NCBI GenBank assembly: GCA_903904545.1
Contig: CAIVDB010000138.1
Span: forward strand, 1-5,939
DNA from: an uncultured bacterium
Lineage (GTDB): Bacteria; Patescibacteria; JAEDAM01; Absconditabacterales; Absconditicoccaceae
Direction of reading: 5' to 3'
Length of the DNA: 5,939 nucleotides
The position numbers and the translations under genes were made by a program. Every line of letters begins with the position of its first letter. Within the stretch, counting starts at the first letter, position 1. Below the pieces are notes generated by a model. It had not been told where the DNA came from. It saw only the letters and a list, made by a program, of their open reading frames with translations, and searched no databases. Positions 1 to 5,939 of the stretch are shown here, in pieces.

Positions 1-555
1 GATAAGAAGCCATACGGAGATAAGAAACCGTACTGAGAGAAGAAGCCATACGGAGATAAGAAACCGTACTGAGATAAGAAGCCATACGGAGATAAGAAAC
101 CATACGGAGATAAGAAACCGTATGGAGATAAGAAACCATACTGAGATAAAAAACCATACTGAGACAAAAAACCGTATGGAGACAAAAAACCAGCATGAAG
201 ACCTTTTGGTGATAGAAAGCCATTTGGAGCTAAGCCATTCGGTGCCAAACCTTTTGGTGCTAGAAAACCCTATGAGGAAAGAAAACCCTATGAAGATACT
301 CCTTACTGAGATAAAAAGTCTGAAACTAGGCCCTTTGGTGATAGGAAACCGTTCTGAGCCAAAAAACCCTTCTGAGCAAGGAAACCCTATGGTGAACAGA
401 GACCTTACGGAGACAAAAAACCGTTCTGAGATAAAAAACCATTTTGAGATAAAAAACCATTTTGAGATAAAAAACCATTTTGAGCAAAGAAGCCTTATGG
501 TGAGCAGAAGCCCTACGGAGATAAGAAACCATACTGAGACAAGAAACCCTTCCAG
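1..555 (+). repeat. 18-bp in-frame tandem repeat array encoding KKP[Y/F]G units
   Basis: The period is 18 bp, one hexapeptide per unit. At the left a 36-bp double unit is visible: 1-36 and 37-72 differ at one base (GAT/GAG), and each holds one GGA-ending and one TGA-ending unit. At 430-483 three 18-bp units (GATAAAAAACCATTTTGA) are identical. Units between about 196 and 306 have diverged (KPFGA, KPYEE). Near-identical neighbours beside worn copies point to repeated local duplication by slippage or unequal exchange. The array runs off the left end of the window. Confidence 0.92.
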
Positions 556-717
556 AATTCGTCCGAAGGCCTCATTCGCAAGGACAGGCCTTATGGGAAT
601 TCCGCTGGTAAATTTATTGAGAAAGAGAGAACTTTCGGTGCAAAAAAAACGTATGGGGATAAAAGACCATCTGGAGAAAGAAAAACGTTTGGAAATTCTA
701 GACCATTCAAAAGATAA
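1..717 (+). CDS. Low-complexity hexapeptide-repeat protein, C-terminal part (TGA = Gly)
   Basis: The gene is open from the first base in frame 1 and ends at TAA 715-717, giving 238 residues; its start lies before the window. It reads only if TGA is Gly: 13 in-frame TGA codons (34, 70, 142, 160, 196, 307, 355, 373, 427, 445, 463, 481, 535) fall almost all at the last position of a [D/E/A][K/R]KP[Y/F]G hexapeptide, where other copies have GGA or GGT. Differences between copies are mostly synonymous in this frame (AAA/AAG, CCA/CCG, TAC/TAT), which supports it. Early units are mostly KPYG, middle ones mostly KPFG, and the last ~60 residues are degenerate, ending SRPFKR. The chain is rich in Lys/Arg, Pro, Gly and aromatics, with no hydrophobic core, membrane segment or catalytic motif, so it should be disordered. 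Similar basic tails occur on bacterial RNA-binding proteins such as helicases and pseudouridine synthases, but the domain that would show this is missing. The function is unknown. Confidence 0.88.
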
Positions 718-718
718 T

Positions 719-1396
719 CTATTTCGTACTATTATCTCGGACAGGGACTCAGAGAAAGATTCCTAATTTTTGTGCGTCTTTACGCATTGAATGGAGTCCT
801 TTGTGATCTATGATATTCATACGACTTCCGTCTTTTAGTATGAGATTGAGTTCATAACTATTGTAAGCTGTTTTTCCTCCATAACACCATTCTCCTACAA
901 GTTGAAGTGCATGTATTTCTTTGAGACTTACATAAGACTTGTGATTTTCTTCTTGTGCAATACTTTGAAATGGAGATGTCCCTTTCCAAAACATACCTAC
1001 TCATGTATCGAAGATAATGGGAGTATGATATTTTTTTAGCATAAGTAGTCCTACACTGGTGAATGCAATGAAAAAAAGTAGACAAGCAGCTAGAAATATA
1101 GGATCAATAGTTTTAATCTTTTCGATAATGATATATAATGAAAGCGCTCCACAAGCAATTCCGGGGAGAAGAAATATAAAAACAAAAAATCGTCCACCAA
1201 ACGCCATTTTGAATTGAGCTTGAAAGGGTGTCTTTTGGTGAAATCTATGGGTGACCACATTGTTTCCTCCGACAATAAGTGGTGTCCAATCTATAGTCAT
1301 GGCCAAAGGATCTCAGAAAATAGTGGGATCAAAATCTTCTCTTTGTCCAAGAACTGCTTTGGCTTGCTCAAATAGTGTAGTAAGAAAAGCTGACAT
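719..1396 (-). CDS. Conserved membrane protein of unknown function, two transmembrane helices (TGA = Gly)
   Basis: The protein has 225 residues, from ATG 1396-1394 to TAG 721-719. Three in-frame TGA codons (Gly28, Gly132, Gly216) would split it under the standard code. Order: a soluble N-terminus (1-65) containing MTIDWTPLIVGG and THRF; two hydrophobic helices at about 70-92 and 98-120 joined by a short charged loop; then a C-terminal domain (about 125-225) with FWKG, EIHALQLVGEW, YELNLILKDGSR, IIDH and LGVPVRD. I recall this C-terminal pattern from uncharacterised membrane proteins of other bacteria, where the last block reads FLG.PVWD; TGA 216 supplies that Gly. I cannot verify this without a search. 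A TTG at 1306 is a possible internal start, but it would lose conserved-looking N-terminal sequence, and ATG 1396 is the first start after an upstream stop. The gene is last in the minus-strand run, 26 bp after the MFS gene, and no clear Shine-Dalgarno sequence precedes it. Confidence 0.85.
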
Positions 1397-1403
1397 GTTT
1401 TTG

Positions 1404-1423
1404 GAGTTTAGCAACTAAAACTC
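1404..1423 (-). other. Small imperfect hairpin between the MFS gene and the last gene
   Basis: On the minus strand GAGTTTTAG and CTAAACTC flank a TTG loop, pairing with one bulged T. The hairpin overlaps the TAG stop of the MFS gene and sits just before the next ATG. No U-run follows, so it is not a typical terminator. It could affect translation start or mRNA processing, or be chance in A/T-rich DNA. Confidence 0.25.
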
Positions 1424-2580
1424 TATTTAAACTTCCTAATAAAGATTGGCATCAGGAGAATAATAAATCCAAAAAAGACAAAAGGGATAATGATCCCTAT
1501 ACTCTTGGTCAGTATATCGGAAAGAATCATAATAAGAAATGTAATGATATTGATGACAATGCCATATGCAGCAGCGCCATATTCTTTTTTGTGGTCTTCT
1601 CCCATATGATAAAATAACCTTCCTTCAAGGAGATTTACTGCGATACCAAAGAAAACTCACATAAGGAAACTGCTGATATTTAGGGTAATATAATAATCAA
1701 ATCTGGAAATAATGTAAGGAAAATACATTGTACTGAGTCCGAATATGATCGTGAAGATAATGGCATAACGTTTTTTTCTTCTCTTGAAGAGGGTAGAGAT
1801 AAGGTGTCCTACAATTGCCCCTACGATAGAGATAACTACTACCATAAGCGAATTATTGGGGACTCTATTAAAGATGTCTATTCCGATTTCCAGCATCTTT
1901 TGTCCTATTGCTGTGGAGATTGCCCAGAGTGCACCGATAGGGATAAAGAGCCAGATGTATTTTTTGATGATGCCAATGATATGAGGGAAGGTCTCACGAA
2001 ATACAGGGAGAAATTTACTTGGTACATGTTCTCTTTCGTATCTTAAGAACTTGTTGATGATAAGAGTGATAAAAACTATGCTGAGTAATCATCGAAATCC
2101 TTGTGCTCACCATTTTGCAAAACAAAAAAATCATAAATAACTTCAGAGGATGGTTCATGCAAGGATTGCTATATTTATAGAACCGTTGATAGTGGTCTCA
2201 GATGACTGGGATTCATAGATTTCTGTAATCAAAAGCATAGATTTGATGATGAGCCAAATCCCATAGACAAATCCCATCATACTCATCAGGAGCACGAATA
2301 CTCGGAATGGTATATAATGGAGGAAATGACCTATGAGTAAACAAATCATCATGATTAATAATATCCATACTGACATCTTTTTGTGAGGGAAAATATATGC
2401 TAGAGATCCTCCAATAAGATATGCAATCATACCTCCCAAGCTTAGATACCCCATGATTTCTTCCAGACTAATATTTATGTCTTTGAGATATGACCACAAG
2501 AAAAACTTGAGCATAGCCATAAAGACGCTCCAGAGAAATGTAACGAGAATAAATAAAATGAGATGTTTATATTTGCGCAT
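1423..2580 (-). CDS. Major facilitator superfamily-like transporter, about 12 transmembrane helices (TGA = Gly)
   Basis: The protein has 385 residues, from ATG 2580-2578 to TAG 1425-1423; a stop codon shortly upstream excludes a longer start. Six in-frame TGA codons are Gly142, 146, 150, 158, 164 and 308; under the standard code only fragments of 141, 79 and 60 residues would be seen. Hydrophobic segments lie at about 7-27, 43-63, 69-86, 91-112, 135-155, 161-177, 206-226, 246-264, 272-290, 297-317, 338-358 and 361-380. Length, 6+6 helix spacing, a basic loop between helices 2 and 3 (FPHKKMS), a central polar loop (180-205) and a basic loop RRKKR (267-271) all fit the MFS fold. The run GTILGSYLG in helix 5 is a normal small-residue packing helix only if TGA is Gly. 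MFS proteins move small solutes across the inner membrane, but I see nothing that identifies the substrate. The gene starts one base after the HIT gene's stop and is probably translated by coupling to it. Confidence 0.85.
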
Positions 2581-2584
2581 ATTA
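2578..2584 (-). promoter_or_regulatory. Stop-start junction TAATATG, likely translational coupling
   Basis: The HIT gene's TAA (2584-2582) and the MFS gene's ATG (2580-2578) are one base apart on the minus strand. No purine-rich Shine-Dalgarno sequence precedes this ATG (the upstream sequence is CCTCATACTTAAT). Ribosomes ending the HIT gene could restart here. The junction is visible only when TGA 2668-2666 is read through. Coupling is inferred. Confidence 0.45.
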
Positions 2585-3028
2585 AGTATGAGGCATAAAG
2601 AGGTTTTTTATTTGAGTGATTTTTTGTAAATAGTCTTCGTTTCCCAAAAACTCACGATTTTCACCTCAGTTTGCTGCTACTAATTGACAATCGGGTATGA
2701 GATGAAAATGGAGATGTTCTATGGTTTTCCCTGTCTCTCCCACAACACAATCTTTGAGAAAAAGATCTACATTTTTGTGTTGATCGTGAAGACGAATGGT
2801 CCATGCCTCTATGAGTTCGAATAGATCATTTAGTTCGTTATGATTGAGATCCTTCATCCAGACTTTATGCTCTTTTGGAACAATAAGTATATGATGGGGA
2901 ACGTATGGAGCACGATTGAGTGTTACATAAAAAAAATCACTTTCCTGAAGTACATGTTGTGGAGGAAGTGAGCAAAAGGGGCAGATGTGGTTTTTTCTTT
3001 CTTCTTGTAATGCTTCAGAGTACTTCAT
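2582..3028 (-). CDS. HIT-family nucleotide-binding protein/hydrolase (TGA = Gly)
   Basis: The protein has 148 residues, from ATG 3028-3026 to TAA 2584-2582. Motifs in order: Cys16-x2-Cys19 (ICPFC), a likely zinc-binding N-terminal pair common in HIT proteins; PHHILIVPKEH at 44-54; and the defining HIT triad His105-x-His107-x-His109 (HLHFHLIP) near residue 105. In the family the middle His forms the nucleotidyl intermediate when phosphoanhydride or phosphoramidate bonds of nucleotides (Ap4A, AMP-lysine and similar) are cleaved. TGA 2668-2666 is Gly121, giving NGGENREF, a Gly-rich turn after the triad; reading it as a stop would remove the last 28 residues. The total length is usual for the family, and the fold is cytosolic. 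The gene lies 71 bp after the SbcC-like gene and one base before the MFS gene. The exact substrate cannot be told from sequence, and a GalT-like branch is possible. There is no clear Shine-Dalgarno sequence. Confidence 0.92.
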
Positions 3029-3052
3029 TAGGAATTGCTGTATTCAGAATAA

Positions 3053-3075
3053 AATATCTTCAACTGAAAGATATT
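3053..3075 (-). other. A/T-rich hairpin in the SbcC-HIT gap
   Basis: AATATCTT and AAGATATT form a perfect 8-bp stem with a 7-base loop, in the 71-bp gap between the ATPase stop and the HIT start. On the minus strand the stem is followed by TTATTCTG, which is only partly U-rich. The stem has one G-C pair, so it would be a weak terminator at best; attenuation or mRNA processing are other possibilities. Confidence 0.3.
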
Positions 3076-3099
3076 GATTTGGAAGAGAATTGCAAAAGA

Positions 3100-5658
3100 T
3101 TAGACAGCTGTGGAGATATCAATTGTAGCATCTCGGATGTCCATATCTTGAATATGTTGGCTATGGGTGACGGTATAGAGTTTCATTGCTCTTTGATGGA
3201 CAAAATTTTCCAAAAGTTCAGCTACTTTGCCGACAGTTTCTCCATCGAGATTATTGATTGTTTCATCTAGAAAGAGCATAGGGGAGTGAAGATACGATGA
3301 GATAGATAACATCCAGACAAGCTTAAGTACTACCATTTGTCCTCCACTGAGACTCTTGATCTCTCTTTCTCCTCTTTCATCCAAAATACTTGCTGCAAGT
3401 TCTAATTTATCTGATCCTGTTTTTTCTAAGGTAAATTTGATTTGATAATCCACCACTTGAGTAAGGTAATTATTGATGATATCATTCAATACCGGTAAGC
3501 TGTCTTGGAGGACGAGTAATAATAATTCTTTGGCAAAGATATTGTAGAGTTCTCAGAGCATTTTTTCCTCTTCTTGGAGCGCTTTTACTTCGATTTGAAT
3601 GTCCTTGAATTCATTGATCAAGACCTGTAAATCGCGTCCTGTCTCTTTGATGGTTGTTGTCAGTGTTTCTACTTTCTGAAGACGAGCAGGATCTAATGAC
3701 TGGATTTGTCCCCTGAGCGTTGTAATCTCTTTTTCTTGTACTTCTTGATCTTTGAGTGTCTGTGCTATTGTTTCTTTCATGCTGGTGATTTGGATCTTGC
3801 ATTTTTCTTTTTCTCCTCTCAATGTTTCCATCTGGCGAAGCATATCTTCTAGGAGGATAATGTCTTTATCTAAGGTTTTGATCTTTGTCTCTTGGGTTTG
3901 ATAGCTCGTAAATTCTTCTTGAAGTTTACTATAATTTACCCCATTCAAAAAGCTTTTGATCTCGCTAATGAGGGACTGGAGTCTTTCTTGTTCTGCCTTA
4001 TGGGTCGTTATTGTCTGACTCGTTTTGCTTGCTTCTAAAAGTTCTTGGAGTTGGACTTCTTTTTGGGTTTTGCTTGCTTGCGTGGCCAAGATGTTTTTTT
4101 CTAGGATTTCTTTTTCTTCCAAAAATCTCTTTTTTTGCTCCTCCAATTTCTCAAAGAGCTGTTTATTGATGACTTTAATAAAGGGACAATTAGTACCTAT
4201 TTTACTACAATCAAATGCTGCTTGCTGCTCGGTCTCTTGGTCAAATAATTGGATTTTTTTCTCTAGGTTTTCTTTCTGTTGCTGGAGATCTTGTATTTTT
4301 TCACTGGTGTTTTTGATGTCTTGTTCTCGTGTTGTTTTTTGTTGACTTGAGCGAAGCTCTTCGTTCTTTATTTGGAGATCAATATTTTGTACTTTCTCAT
4401 TGATGTTCTTGCCGAAAGTGATTATCCCTTGGACAAAAAGCGAAAGATTGCTTATGTGGATGTCTGCTCCATTCTTAGGAAGCACGCTATCGAGGTCTTT
4501 CTCATATTTCAAATAAAAATCTAGGAATGCTTGCTTAGGTAAAGCTTCCTCTATTTTTTCTTGTTGAGCGAGAAGCTCATTTTTCTCATTTTTTATCTTC
4601 TGGAGTTTTTCTGGATCTGATCAAGATATTTTTGTATCGATACTCAGGATCGTTTTTTCTGTCTCTTGTATTTTCCTTTGGGTATCTTGGATGCTTATTT
4701 TGTTTTTTTCCAGTTCTTTCTCTTTCAATTCTTTGCTTTGTTGTAATGAGCTGCATTGCTGTTTGTAAGAGTCAATCCGTCATTGGAGGGTCTCTACGAG
4801 ATCACGAGGTAGATTCTCCAAAGAAAAGTCAGTAATAGTTACTTTCTCTCTAATAAGCTCTATATCATCCAAGAAATCTTGATATTCCTTTTTCTCTATG
4901 ATATTCCCTAGGTCTGCATAATCCTTATAGGTCAGGAGGGTAGAAAAATTTTCAGTATAACGATTGAGCAGGTTTTGGAGCTTGGTATCGTATTTTGAAG
5001 TGTCGGCAGTTGCCTTGAGCTTATAGCCTACCTCTCTTTTTTTATCTGCAATAATCTCCTTTCCTTCATCGATAGCGAGTAGATTGAAGACGTTTTTGAG
5101 TACATTCAATCTGTCTGCGGGAGTAAGTTGGAAAATGTTTTCTGAGTCTTGCATGAGAAAAGAGGTATTCAGAAAGACTTCTTTGGGAGCTAACATACTC
5201 TGGAGGGTTTGTTGGAGGTCGGTTTCGTTTTTGAAGGATATTTCTTCAAAACTTGCTCCATTATTTCTTAAAAATTTCTCTATATCTATGTTTTTTTCCA
5301 AAATGGCATATCCTTGCTCGTTTTTTATCTGCCAGAATTTCTCTTGATCAATGCTAATTTTATACAAGAGTGATGAACAACTATCTTTGCTTTTGCCTGC
5401 TTTGAGATTTCTAATAACGAGATATTTTTCTTCATCCAGTTCAAAGAAAATTTTAATCCGTCCTTCTTTGGATTGAGCATTTAGCATGTTCCTATTTGCG
5501 ATTTTGTAGAGTCCAAACAGTGGCCCATCAAAGAAGAGGAAACTCTTCCCCGATCCTATAGGTGCCTTGATGAGATATTTCCCTTGATCGAAAAAACAAG
5601 AGAGGGGAGTATCTTTGAAGGGGCCTATATTGAGATATGAGATAGCAAGGAGATTCAC
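3100..5658 (-). CDS. SbcC/Rad50-like coiled-coil ATPase (TGA = Gly)
   Basis: The protein has 852 residues, from GTG 5658-5656 to TAA 3102-3100. In-frame TGA codons are Gly293, Gly346 and Gly702; the standard code gives three separate fragments in one frame. Domain order is that of the SbcC/Rad50/SMC class: an N-terminal ATPase lobe with Walker A APIGSGKS (32-39, first Gly replaced by Ala) and a Q-loop at Gln170 (FLMQDSENIF); long Gln/Glu/Lys-rich coiled coil at about 195-480 and 495-700; Cys484 and Cys491 (CSKIGTNC) at the turn, where Rad50 has its zinc hook; and a C-terminal lobe with signature LSGGQ (770-774), Walker B MLFLDE (794-799), D-loop NNLD (802-805) and H-loop His832. Relatives pair with the nuclease SbcD/Mre11 to process DNA ends and hairpins; no sbcD is in the window. 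The length is below that of E. coli SbcC (about 1,050). No ATG or TTG exists between GTG 5658 and the upstream stop at 5724-5722. The gene is first of the minus-strand run. Confidence 0.9.
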
Positions 5659-5688: not shown

Positions 5689-5716
5689 AGTGTACGAGAA
5701 TCTTCTATTTTTTCAA
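5689..5716 (-). promoter_or_regulatory. Candidate sigma-70-type promoter for the minus-strand gene run
   Basis: On the minus strand TTGAAA (5716-5711, 5 of 6 matches to TTGACA) is followed after 16 bases by TACACT (5694-5689, 4 of 6 matches to TATAAT). Transcription would start near 5682 and leave a leader of about 24 bases before the GTG at 5658. It is the best match I see in the gap upstream of the run, but such matches arise easily in A/T-rich DNA. Confidence 0.4.
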
Positions 5717-5809
5717 GGTATTTAAGTATTTATTCTGGACTTTTGTTTGTTCTTTTAATTAAATCCCCCGTCCTAAAGGACCTCCCGCAGCTTTTGCGGG
5801 ACAGGCTCT

Positions 5810-5829
5810 CCCCCTTTGAGTAAAGGGGG
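5810..5829. other. Perfect 8-bp hairpin inside the palindromic element
   Basis: CCCCCTTT (5810-5817) and AAAGGGGG (5822-5829) pair around a GAGT loop. No T-run follows on either strand, so it is not a standard intrinsic terminator. It is best read as part of the folded repeat. Confidence 0.6.
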
Positions 5830-5849
5830 TACACAATTATCCCAATTGA

Positions 5850-5894
5850 ATTCCCTCTTTATTTGACCGAAGGGAATCCTGTGGATAAAGAGGG
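5850..5894. other. Two mutually exclusive stems inside the palindromic element
   Basis: ATTCCCT (5850-5856) can pair with AGGGAAT (5871-5877). The overlapping CCCTCTTTAT (5853-5862) can pair with ATAAAGAGGG (5885-5894), a perfect 10-bp stem. Both cannot form at once. This resembles a two-state RNA switch, but within a mobile-type repeat it may only reflect nested palindromes. Confidence 0.5.
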
Positions 5895-5939
5895 GGGACC
5901 CCGGCGTCCCGAGGGCAAGCCGGAACGGTGGGAGATTTA

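Follow-up and report, generated by a model that had tools for sequence, protein, structure and literature searches.

Bacteria of the SR1/Absconditabacteria and Gracilibacteria groups use the code listed as NCBI table 25, in which UGA encodes glycine; Campbell 2013 is cited by papers on this code. For a BD1-5/SN-2 bacterium, UGA = Gly was reported with 97 glycine-specific versus 3 tryptophan-specific peptides (Hanke 2014, PMC4032931), and 53 genomes of class JAEDAM01 are described with the same reassignment (PMC13092985). In Absconditabacteria, CGA and CGG are reported as reassigned to tryptophan, with one species in which they approach UGG in frequency (Shulgina and Eddy 2021, PMC8629427); for all three papers, we draw on the portions of the text that were available. 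Here we analyzed the whole of contig stretch CAIVDB010000138.1 (the window; 5,939 nt), from a member of the Absconditicoccaceae. Five frames were considered: a repeat gene and genes for a putative membrane protein, an MFS transporter, a HIT-domain protein and an SbcC/Rad50-like coiled-coil ATPase (Table 1). We are nearly certain of the following joint explanation: the window comes from an SR1/Absconditabacteria chromosome in which UGA is read as glycine, release factor 1 (RF1) acts at UAA and UAG, and CGA (probably CGG as well) is read as tryptophan.

The five frames stay open only when TGA is a sense codon. They contain 26 in-frame TGAs (13, 3, 6, 1 and 3, in the order given above) and no TAA or TAG before the frame end, which reproduces all the counts of an earlier note on this DNA. 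Under table 11, the four minus-strand genes are broken at TGAs, with open reading frames ending at 749, 1001, 1657, 2155, 2666, 3553 and 4780. Outside the five frames, the whole window has 217 TGAs versus 334 TAAs and TAGs. At this ratio, the chance of 26 TGAs and no TAA or TAG in frame is ∼3e-11, by a plain binomial estimate in which codon composition is disregarded.

To assign a residue to UGA, we relied on the DNA of relatives rather than on database proteins, because the translations of the latter seem mixed. TGA, CGA and CGG were masked before the window was aligned with its relatives, and the codons were read back afterwards. Rows were the best matches above 95 bits, numbering 12 for the MFS gene, 13 for the HIT gene and 26 for the ATPase gene. 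These three genes hold 10 of the 26 TGA codons. As a control, the same inference was applied to 59 other sense codons, and the standard residue was obtained for 55 (all except ACG, CAG, GCC and GCG).

Pooled over the 10 TGA codons, glycine scored +16.3 nats, followed by asparagine at +0.6, a lead of 15.7; tryptophan scored –17.2. Glycine remained best whichever column was left out. The 149 cells opposite a window TGA comprise 44 GGN glycine codons, 32 TGAs and 73 others, with no TGG. Thus the earlier note's reading of UGA as glycine is upheld by the pooled columns, as is its expectation that TGA would align with conserved glycine; alignment with tryptophan, which it named as the contrary outcome, was not seen. 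Taken singly, glycine was the best residue in 6 of the 10 columns. Glycine or TGA occupies 12, 12, 12, 9 and 11 of 12 rows at MFS codons 142, 146, 150, 158 and 308, respectively, and 13 of 26 rows at ATPase codon 702, where asparagine accounts for five. Two points weigh against this assignment. Glycine is not the best residue in the other four columns (MFS 164, HIT 121, ATPase 293 and 346); at HIT 121, for example, one of 13 relatives has glycine and five have serine. These columns are variable, and therefore show that UGA is a sense codon rather than what it means. Moreover, the residue test takes in neither the repeat gene, with its 13 TGAs, nor the membrane-protein gene, with 3, as these two had no hits above 95 bits in those loci. 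Taken together, these sequence comparisons support glycine as the meaning of UGA in the window.

We similarly analyzed four of the six CGA codons in the window, namely those of the MFS and ATPase genes. Pooled, these columns gave +10.0 nats for tryptophan, –0.9 for glutamine, the next residue, and –6.3 for arginine, so that tryptophan leads glutamine by 10.9 nats and arginine by 16.3. Tryptophan was best in every leave-one-out and in three of the four columns singly (MFS 93, MFS 163 and ATPase 842). The clearest sign that CGA may mean tryptophan comes from ATPase codon 842: among 26 relatives, 16 have TGG, 7 CGA and 2 CGG at this position and the last shows a gap; arginine codons are absent. 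The reverse comparison is consistent with this. Opposite the window's TGG codons, 151 cells hold 72 CGA/CGG, 30 TGG, 3 arginine codons and 46 others. Of 161 CGA/CGG cells in relatives, 72 lie opposite tryptophan in the window, 18 opposite CGA/CGG and none opposite an arginine codon (AGA, AGG, CGT or CGC), whereas the relatives' 543 AGA/AGG/CGT/CGC cells lie opposite window arginine 207 times and tryptophan 3 times.

The closest competitor is table 25 as it stands, with UGA as glycine and every CGN still arginine. NCBI table 25 alters TGA alone, the window offers only eight CGA/CGG codons, and two of its six CGA columns (ATPase 444 and membrane protein 75) are not tryptophan-like in relatives, the former weighing directly against the tryptophan assignment. 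So do the two CGG columns, which when pooled favored tyrosine (+3.8) and phenylalanine (+2.0) over tryptophan (–3.2) and arginine (–4.1); at one of them, ATPase codon 294, six of the eight near homologues shown have arginine or tryptophan and two have a gap. Yet arginine fares poorly at CGA in the pooled scores, and the 71 cells opposite a window CGA include 20 TGG and 15 CGA/CGG but no AGA, AGG, CGT or CGC. With nearly half of the cells at window TGG sites occupied by CGA/CGG as well, we reject unmodified table 25 as very improbable. These data suggest that CGA in the window is read as tryptophan, not arginine; the two CGG columns favor neither residue. The earlier note's choice of table 25 thus stands for UGA and is incomplete with respect to CGA. 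Used alone, that table places arginine at up to eight possible tryptophan sites.

The window's kinship points the same way as its codons. Homologues at E 0.001 or less number 77 for the MFS protein and 345 for the ATPase, 120 of the latter being listed. Among the matches listed, at least 15 homologues carry an organism name: SR1, Absconditabacteria or Gracilibacteria in 14 of 15, and 'uncultured bacterium (gcode 4)' in the remaining one. A profile scan of genome contigs with the ATPase alignment found 34 loci. An ATPase frame was obtained from 26 of them (L001–L026); the remaining eight contained short ATPase stretches only. An ATPase tree of 22 rows pairs the window with L001 (SR1 metagenome-assembled genome 36_8; 97/95), and then with L010 (100/100). 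The order ATPase, HIT, MFS recurs in 6 of the 26 loci, and ATPase then MFS in 12. The tree and the named homologues support placing the window with SR1/Absconditabacteria, in agreement with the earlier note; we take it to be chromosomal DNA of a bacterium of this group. In L001, the nearest relative, the HIT gene was not found; a frame for another protein, of 132 aa, lies between the ATPase and MFS genes (L001:12560-12958).

The tRNAs and release factors were read in relatives, whereas the open frames, the pooled glycine at UGA, the pooled tryptophan at CGA and the kinship are seen in the window itself. ARAGORN was run on 21 of 30 tRNA loci and on stretches around further matches. The genome of the nearest relative (G001) encodes a tRNA with anticodon UCA, which the program labels SeC, together with UCG- and CCG-anticodon tRNAs, which it labels Arg; so does the complete SR1 genome RAAC1 (G004, which contains L008). 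Acceptor ends were judged by eye with the identity rules given in the available text of PMC8629427. In both genomes, G1-C2-G3 of the UCA tRNA pairs with C-G-C and is accompanied by U73, a glycine-type acceptor; the UCG and CCG tRNAs have G73, as in tRNA-Trp, and three arginine tRNAs per genome have A73. A full-length release-factor gene scoring over the RF1 cut-offs and below those of release factor 2 (RF2) was found in 8 of 8 relatives, two of which have an extra short, weak release-factor match. No RF2 over cut-off was found in G001 or RAAC1.

Across 59 relatives of G001 (a count that takes in G001 and RAAC1), RF2 over cut-off was present in 20 and a UCA tRNA, its anticodon checked in each case, in 29. 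None had both and 10 had neither. G001 and G005, the two genomes closest to the window, are among the 39 lacking RF2 over cut-off, and in 35 of the 39 the RF1-type gene itself contains an in-frame TGA. Several of these genomes fit the proposed decoding less well. Such cases include the 10 that lack both RF2 over cut-off and a strong match to the UCA tRNA. In 3 of the 39, the lack of RF2 says little, because no release-factor match was found at all. In G032, where the UCA tRNA is present, the RF1-type gene is free of TGA. In G005, one of those 10 and the genome of the second-nearest relative, no UCA or CCG tRNA was seen, and at least one of its 39 tRNA matches was uncalled by ARAGORN; a related tRNA cluster starts ∼320 bases from a contig end, so the UCA tRNA gene may lie beyond the assembly. 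By analogy with its relatives, the window's own genome would carry the same tRNAs and lack RF2.

Three further observations concern these tRNA genes. Ten genomes, G001 included, share the UCA tRNA with 99–100% identity across 74 bases (L099:103-176; matching loci L142–L169). In most of the loci that were read, tRNA-Tyr and tRNA-Ala are no more than ∼1 kb from it, and often tRNA-Arg(UCU) and tRNA-Glu(CUC) as well. One tRNA match in G005 (L139:224-335) spans 112 bases, longer than usual, and was uncalled by ARAGORN.

A reading of UGA as tryptophan (table 4), as in Mycoplasma, would keep the frames open just as well, and tryptophan does appear at TGA columns in many database homologues, probably because these were translated by table 4 (one is labeled 'gcode 4'). 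However, the codon-level scores and the lack of TGG opposite window TGAs oppose it, as do the glycine-type acceptor ends of the relatives' UCA tRNAs, and we reject it as scarcely credible. We likewise give almost no weight to gene decay under the standard code or to readthrough of stop codons: table 11 does break the frames, but the interruptions in five genes are always TGA and never TAA or TAG, the same columns carry TGA as a sense codon in 32 of 149 cells of relatives, and the gene order recurs as for kept genes.

In the explanation that we favor, loss of RF2 would leave UGA free, and tRNA-Gly(UCA) would presumably decode it as an ordinary glycine codon. Genes would end at UAA and UAG, through RF1. 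The UCG- and CCG-anticodon tRNAs would insert tryptophan at CGA, and probably at CGG.

Tryptophan codons are used unevenly among relatives. At nine conserved tryptophan columns of the ATPase, HIT and MFS genes, the window has seven UGG and two CGA. By comparison, L004, L005, L020 and L022 have CGA or CGG at all covered sites (9, 5, 8 and 9, respectively) and no UGG. Locus-wide counts by a crude open-reading-frame rule gave 104 CGA plus CGG versus 23 TGG per 10,000 codons for L020, and 73 versus 46 for L005. For L004 (76 versus 71) and L022 (79 versus 77) the two were about equal, which weighs against a takeover. Tentatively, CGA and CGG together could be the main tryptophan codons in part of the lineage, beyond the extent given in the available published text, although we lean slightly against this.

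Table 1. Features of the window discussed in the text
Feature	Position	Strand	Remarks
Repeat gene, 3' part, low complexity	1..717	+	Repeat K-K-P-[YF]-G-D; 13 in-frame TGA
Putative membrane protein	719..1414	-	TTG start (ATG at 1396); membrane nature judged by eye
Membrane-protein gene, in-frame TGA	749-751, 1001-1003, 1313-1315	-	
Membrane-protein gene, CGA	737-739, 1190-1192	-	
MFS transporter	1423..2580	-	PF07690 (MFS_1), 41.4 bits; 6 in-frame TGA
MFS gene, CGA	2302-2304, 2092-2094	-	
HIT-domain protein	2582..3028	-	PF01230, 49.4 bits, residues 23-113
HIT gene, TGA in variable C-terminal part	2666-2668	-	
SbcC/Rad50-like coiled-coil ATPase	3100..5658	-	GTG start; SbcC/Rad50-type family matches below cut-off
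ATPase gene, in-frame TGA	3553-3555, 4621-4623, 4780-4782	-	
ATPase gene, CGA	3133-3135, 4327-4329	-	
CGA codon 842 of ATPase, tryptophan column, motif MDI-W-D near C terminus	3133..3135	-	Trp +5.2, Arg -2.0 nats
ATPase gene, CGG	4777-4779, 5458-5460	-	

The earlier note had described fragments of the ATPase, MFS and HIT genes as completing known architectures. Two of the five frames pass a Pfam cut-off, those of MFS_1 and HIT; for the ATPase, only SbcC/Rad50-type matches below cut-off were obtained. In a 25-row ATPase alignment that includes the window, C484 and C491-P492 are invariant and may represent a variant form of the zinc hook of Rad50. The repeat gene and the membrane protein had no match among Pfam or NCBIfam families. 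No tRNA or Rfam match was found in the window, and its promoter-like sites (18) show no excess over the 18.0 expected from shuffles.

The repeat gene contains a tandem repeat with a period of 18 nt. Eleven of its 13 TGAs come after [KR]KP[YF], a place taken by GGN in other copies, and TGA makes up a larger share of its glycine codons (13/35) than in the other four genes (13/84; Fisher p 0.014). Matches were found in 8 of the 59 relatives. Those ranked second and third, L108 and L109, are similar tails ending proteins with DEAD, Helicase_C and DbpA domains, and the repeat gene probably encodes such a C-terminal tail, from a DEAD-box RNA helicase that carries a DbpA domain. This identity is an indirect one, since similar repeats also occur in proteins whose labels or marks point to pseudouridine synthase, RlmB, an RNA-recognition motif or a helicase. 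The membrane protein has a homologue in one of the 59 relatives (L105; E 5.9e-24, 31% identity) and a marginal match in another (E 6.5e-4). In the pair formed with L105, one TGA lies opposite TGA and the other two opposite asparagine and leucine; one CGA lies opposite CGG and the other opposite tyrosine.

The end of the window (5690-5939) is intergenic and, by eye, partly GC-rich. Short scattered matches to it occur in 9 of 59 relatives, the best 93% over ∼45 bases, which suggests a possible interspersed repeat; no inverted repeat of 12 or more bases was found there.

The window is thus a clean example of a known code. Relative to the available published descriptions it adds nothing, and the CGA/CGG usage of its relatives may. 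Translating such contigs with table 25 alone puts arginine where the cell probably puts tryptophan. Public proteins of the group seem to be of mixed translation, with tryptophan for glycine and arginine for tryptophan, and alignments and function prediction are therefore misled.

Compared with the table 25 code of SR1/Absconditabacteria and Gracilibacteria, the window is alike in its UGA at glycine columns and in its kinship, and its relatives are alike in having a glycine-featured tRNA(UCA) and lacking RF2. For UGA we find no difference, and reading it as glycine is the correct reading of that known code, not a new one; CGA and CGG lie outside what table 25 changes. CGA = Trp has itself been published for Absconditabacteria (PMC8629427). 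With that description, as far as the available text goes, the window shares CGA at tryptophan columns and arginine encoded by AGA, AGG, CGT and CGC, and the relatives share UCG and CCG tRNAs with G73. Unlike it, the two CGG columns of the window favor tyrosine and phenylalanine, with tryptophan and arginine both low, and CGA plus CGG exceed TGG at the conserved tryptophan columns of the operon in some relatives. Finally, the BD1-5/SN-2 bacterium, in the available account of it (PMC4032931), was the subject of the peptide mass spectrometry that the earlier note had called for, has the same UGA reassignment as the window and belongs to a related but different candidate division.

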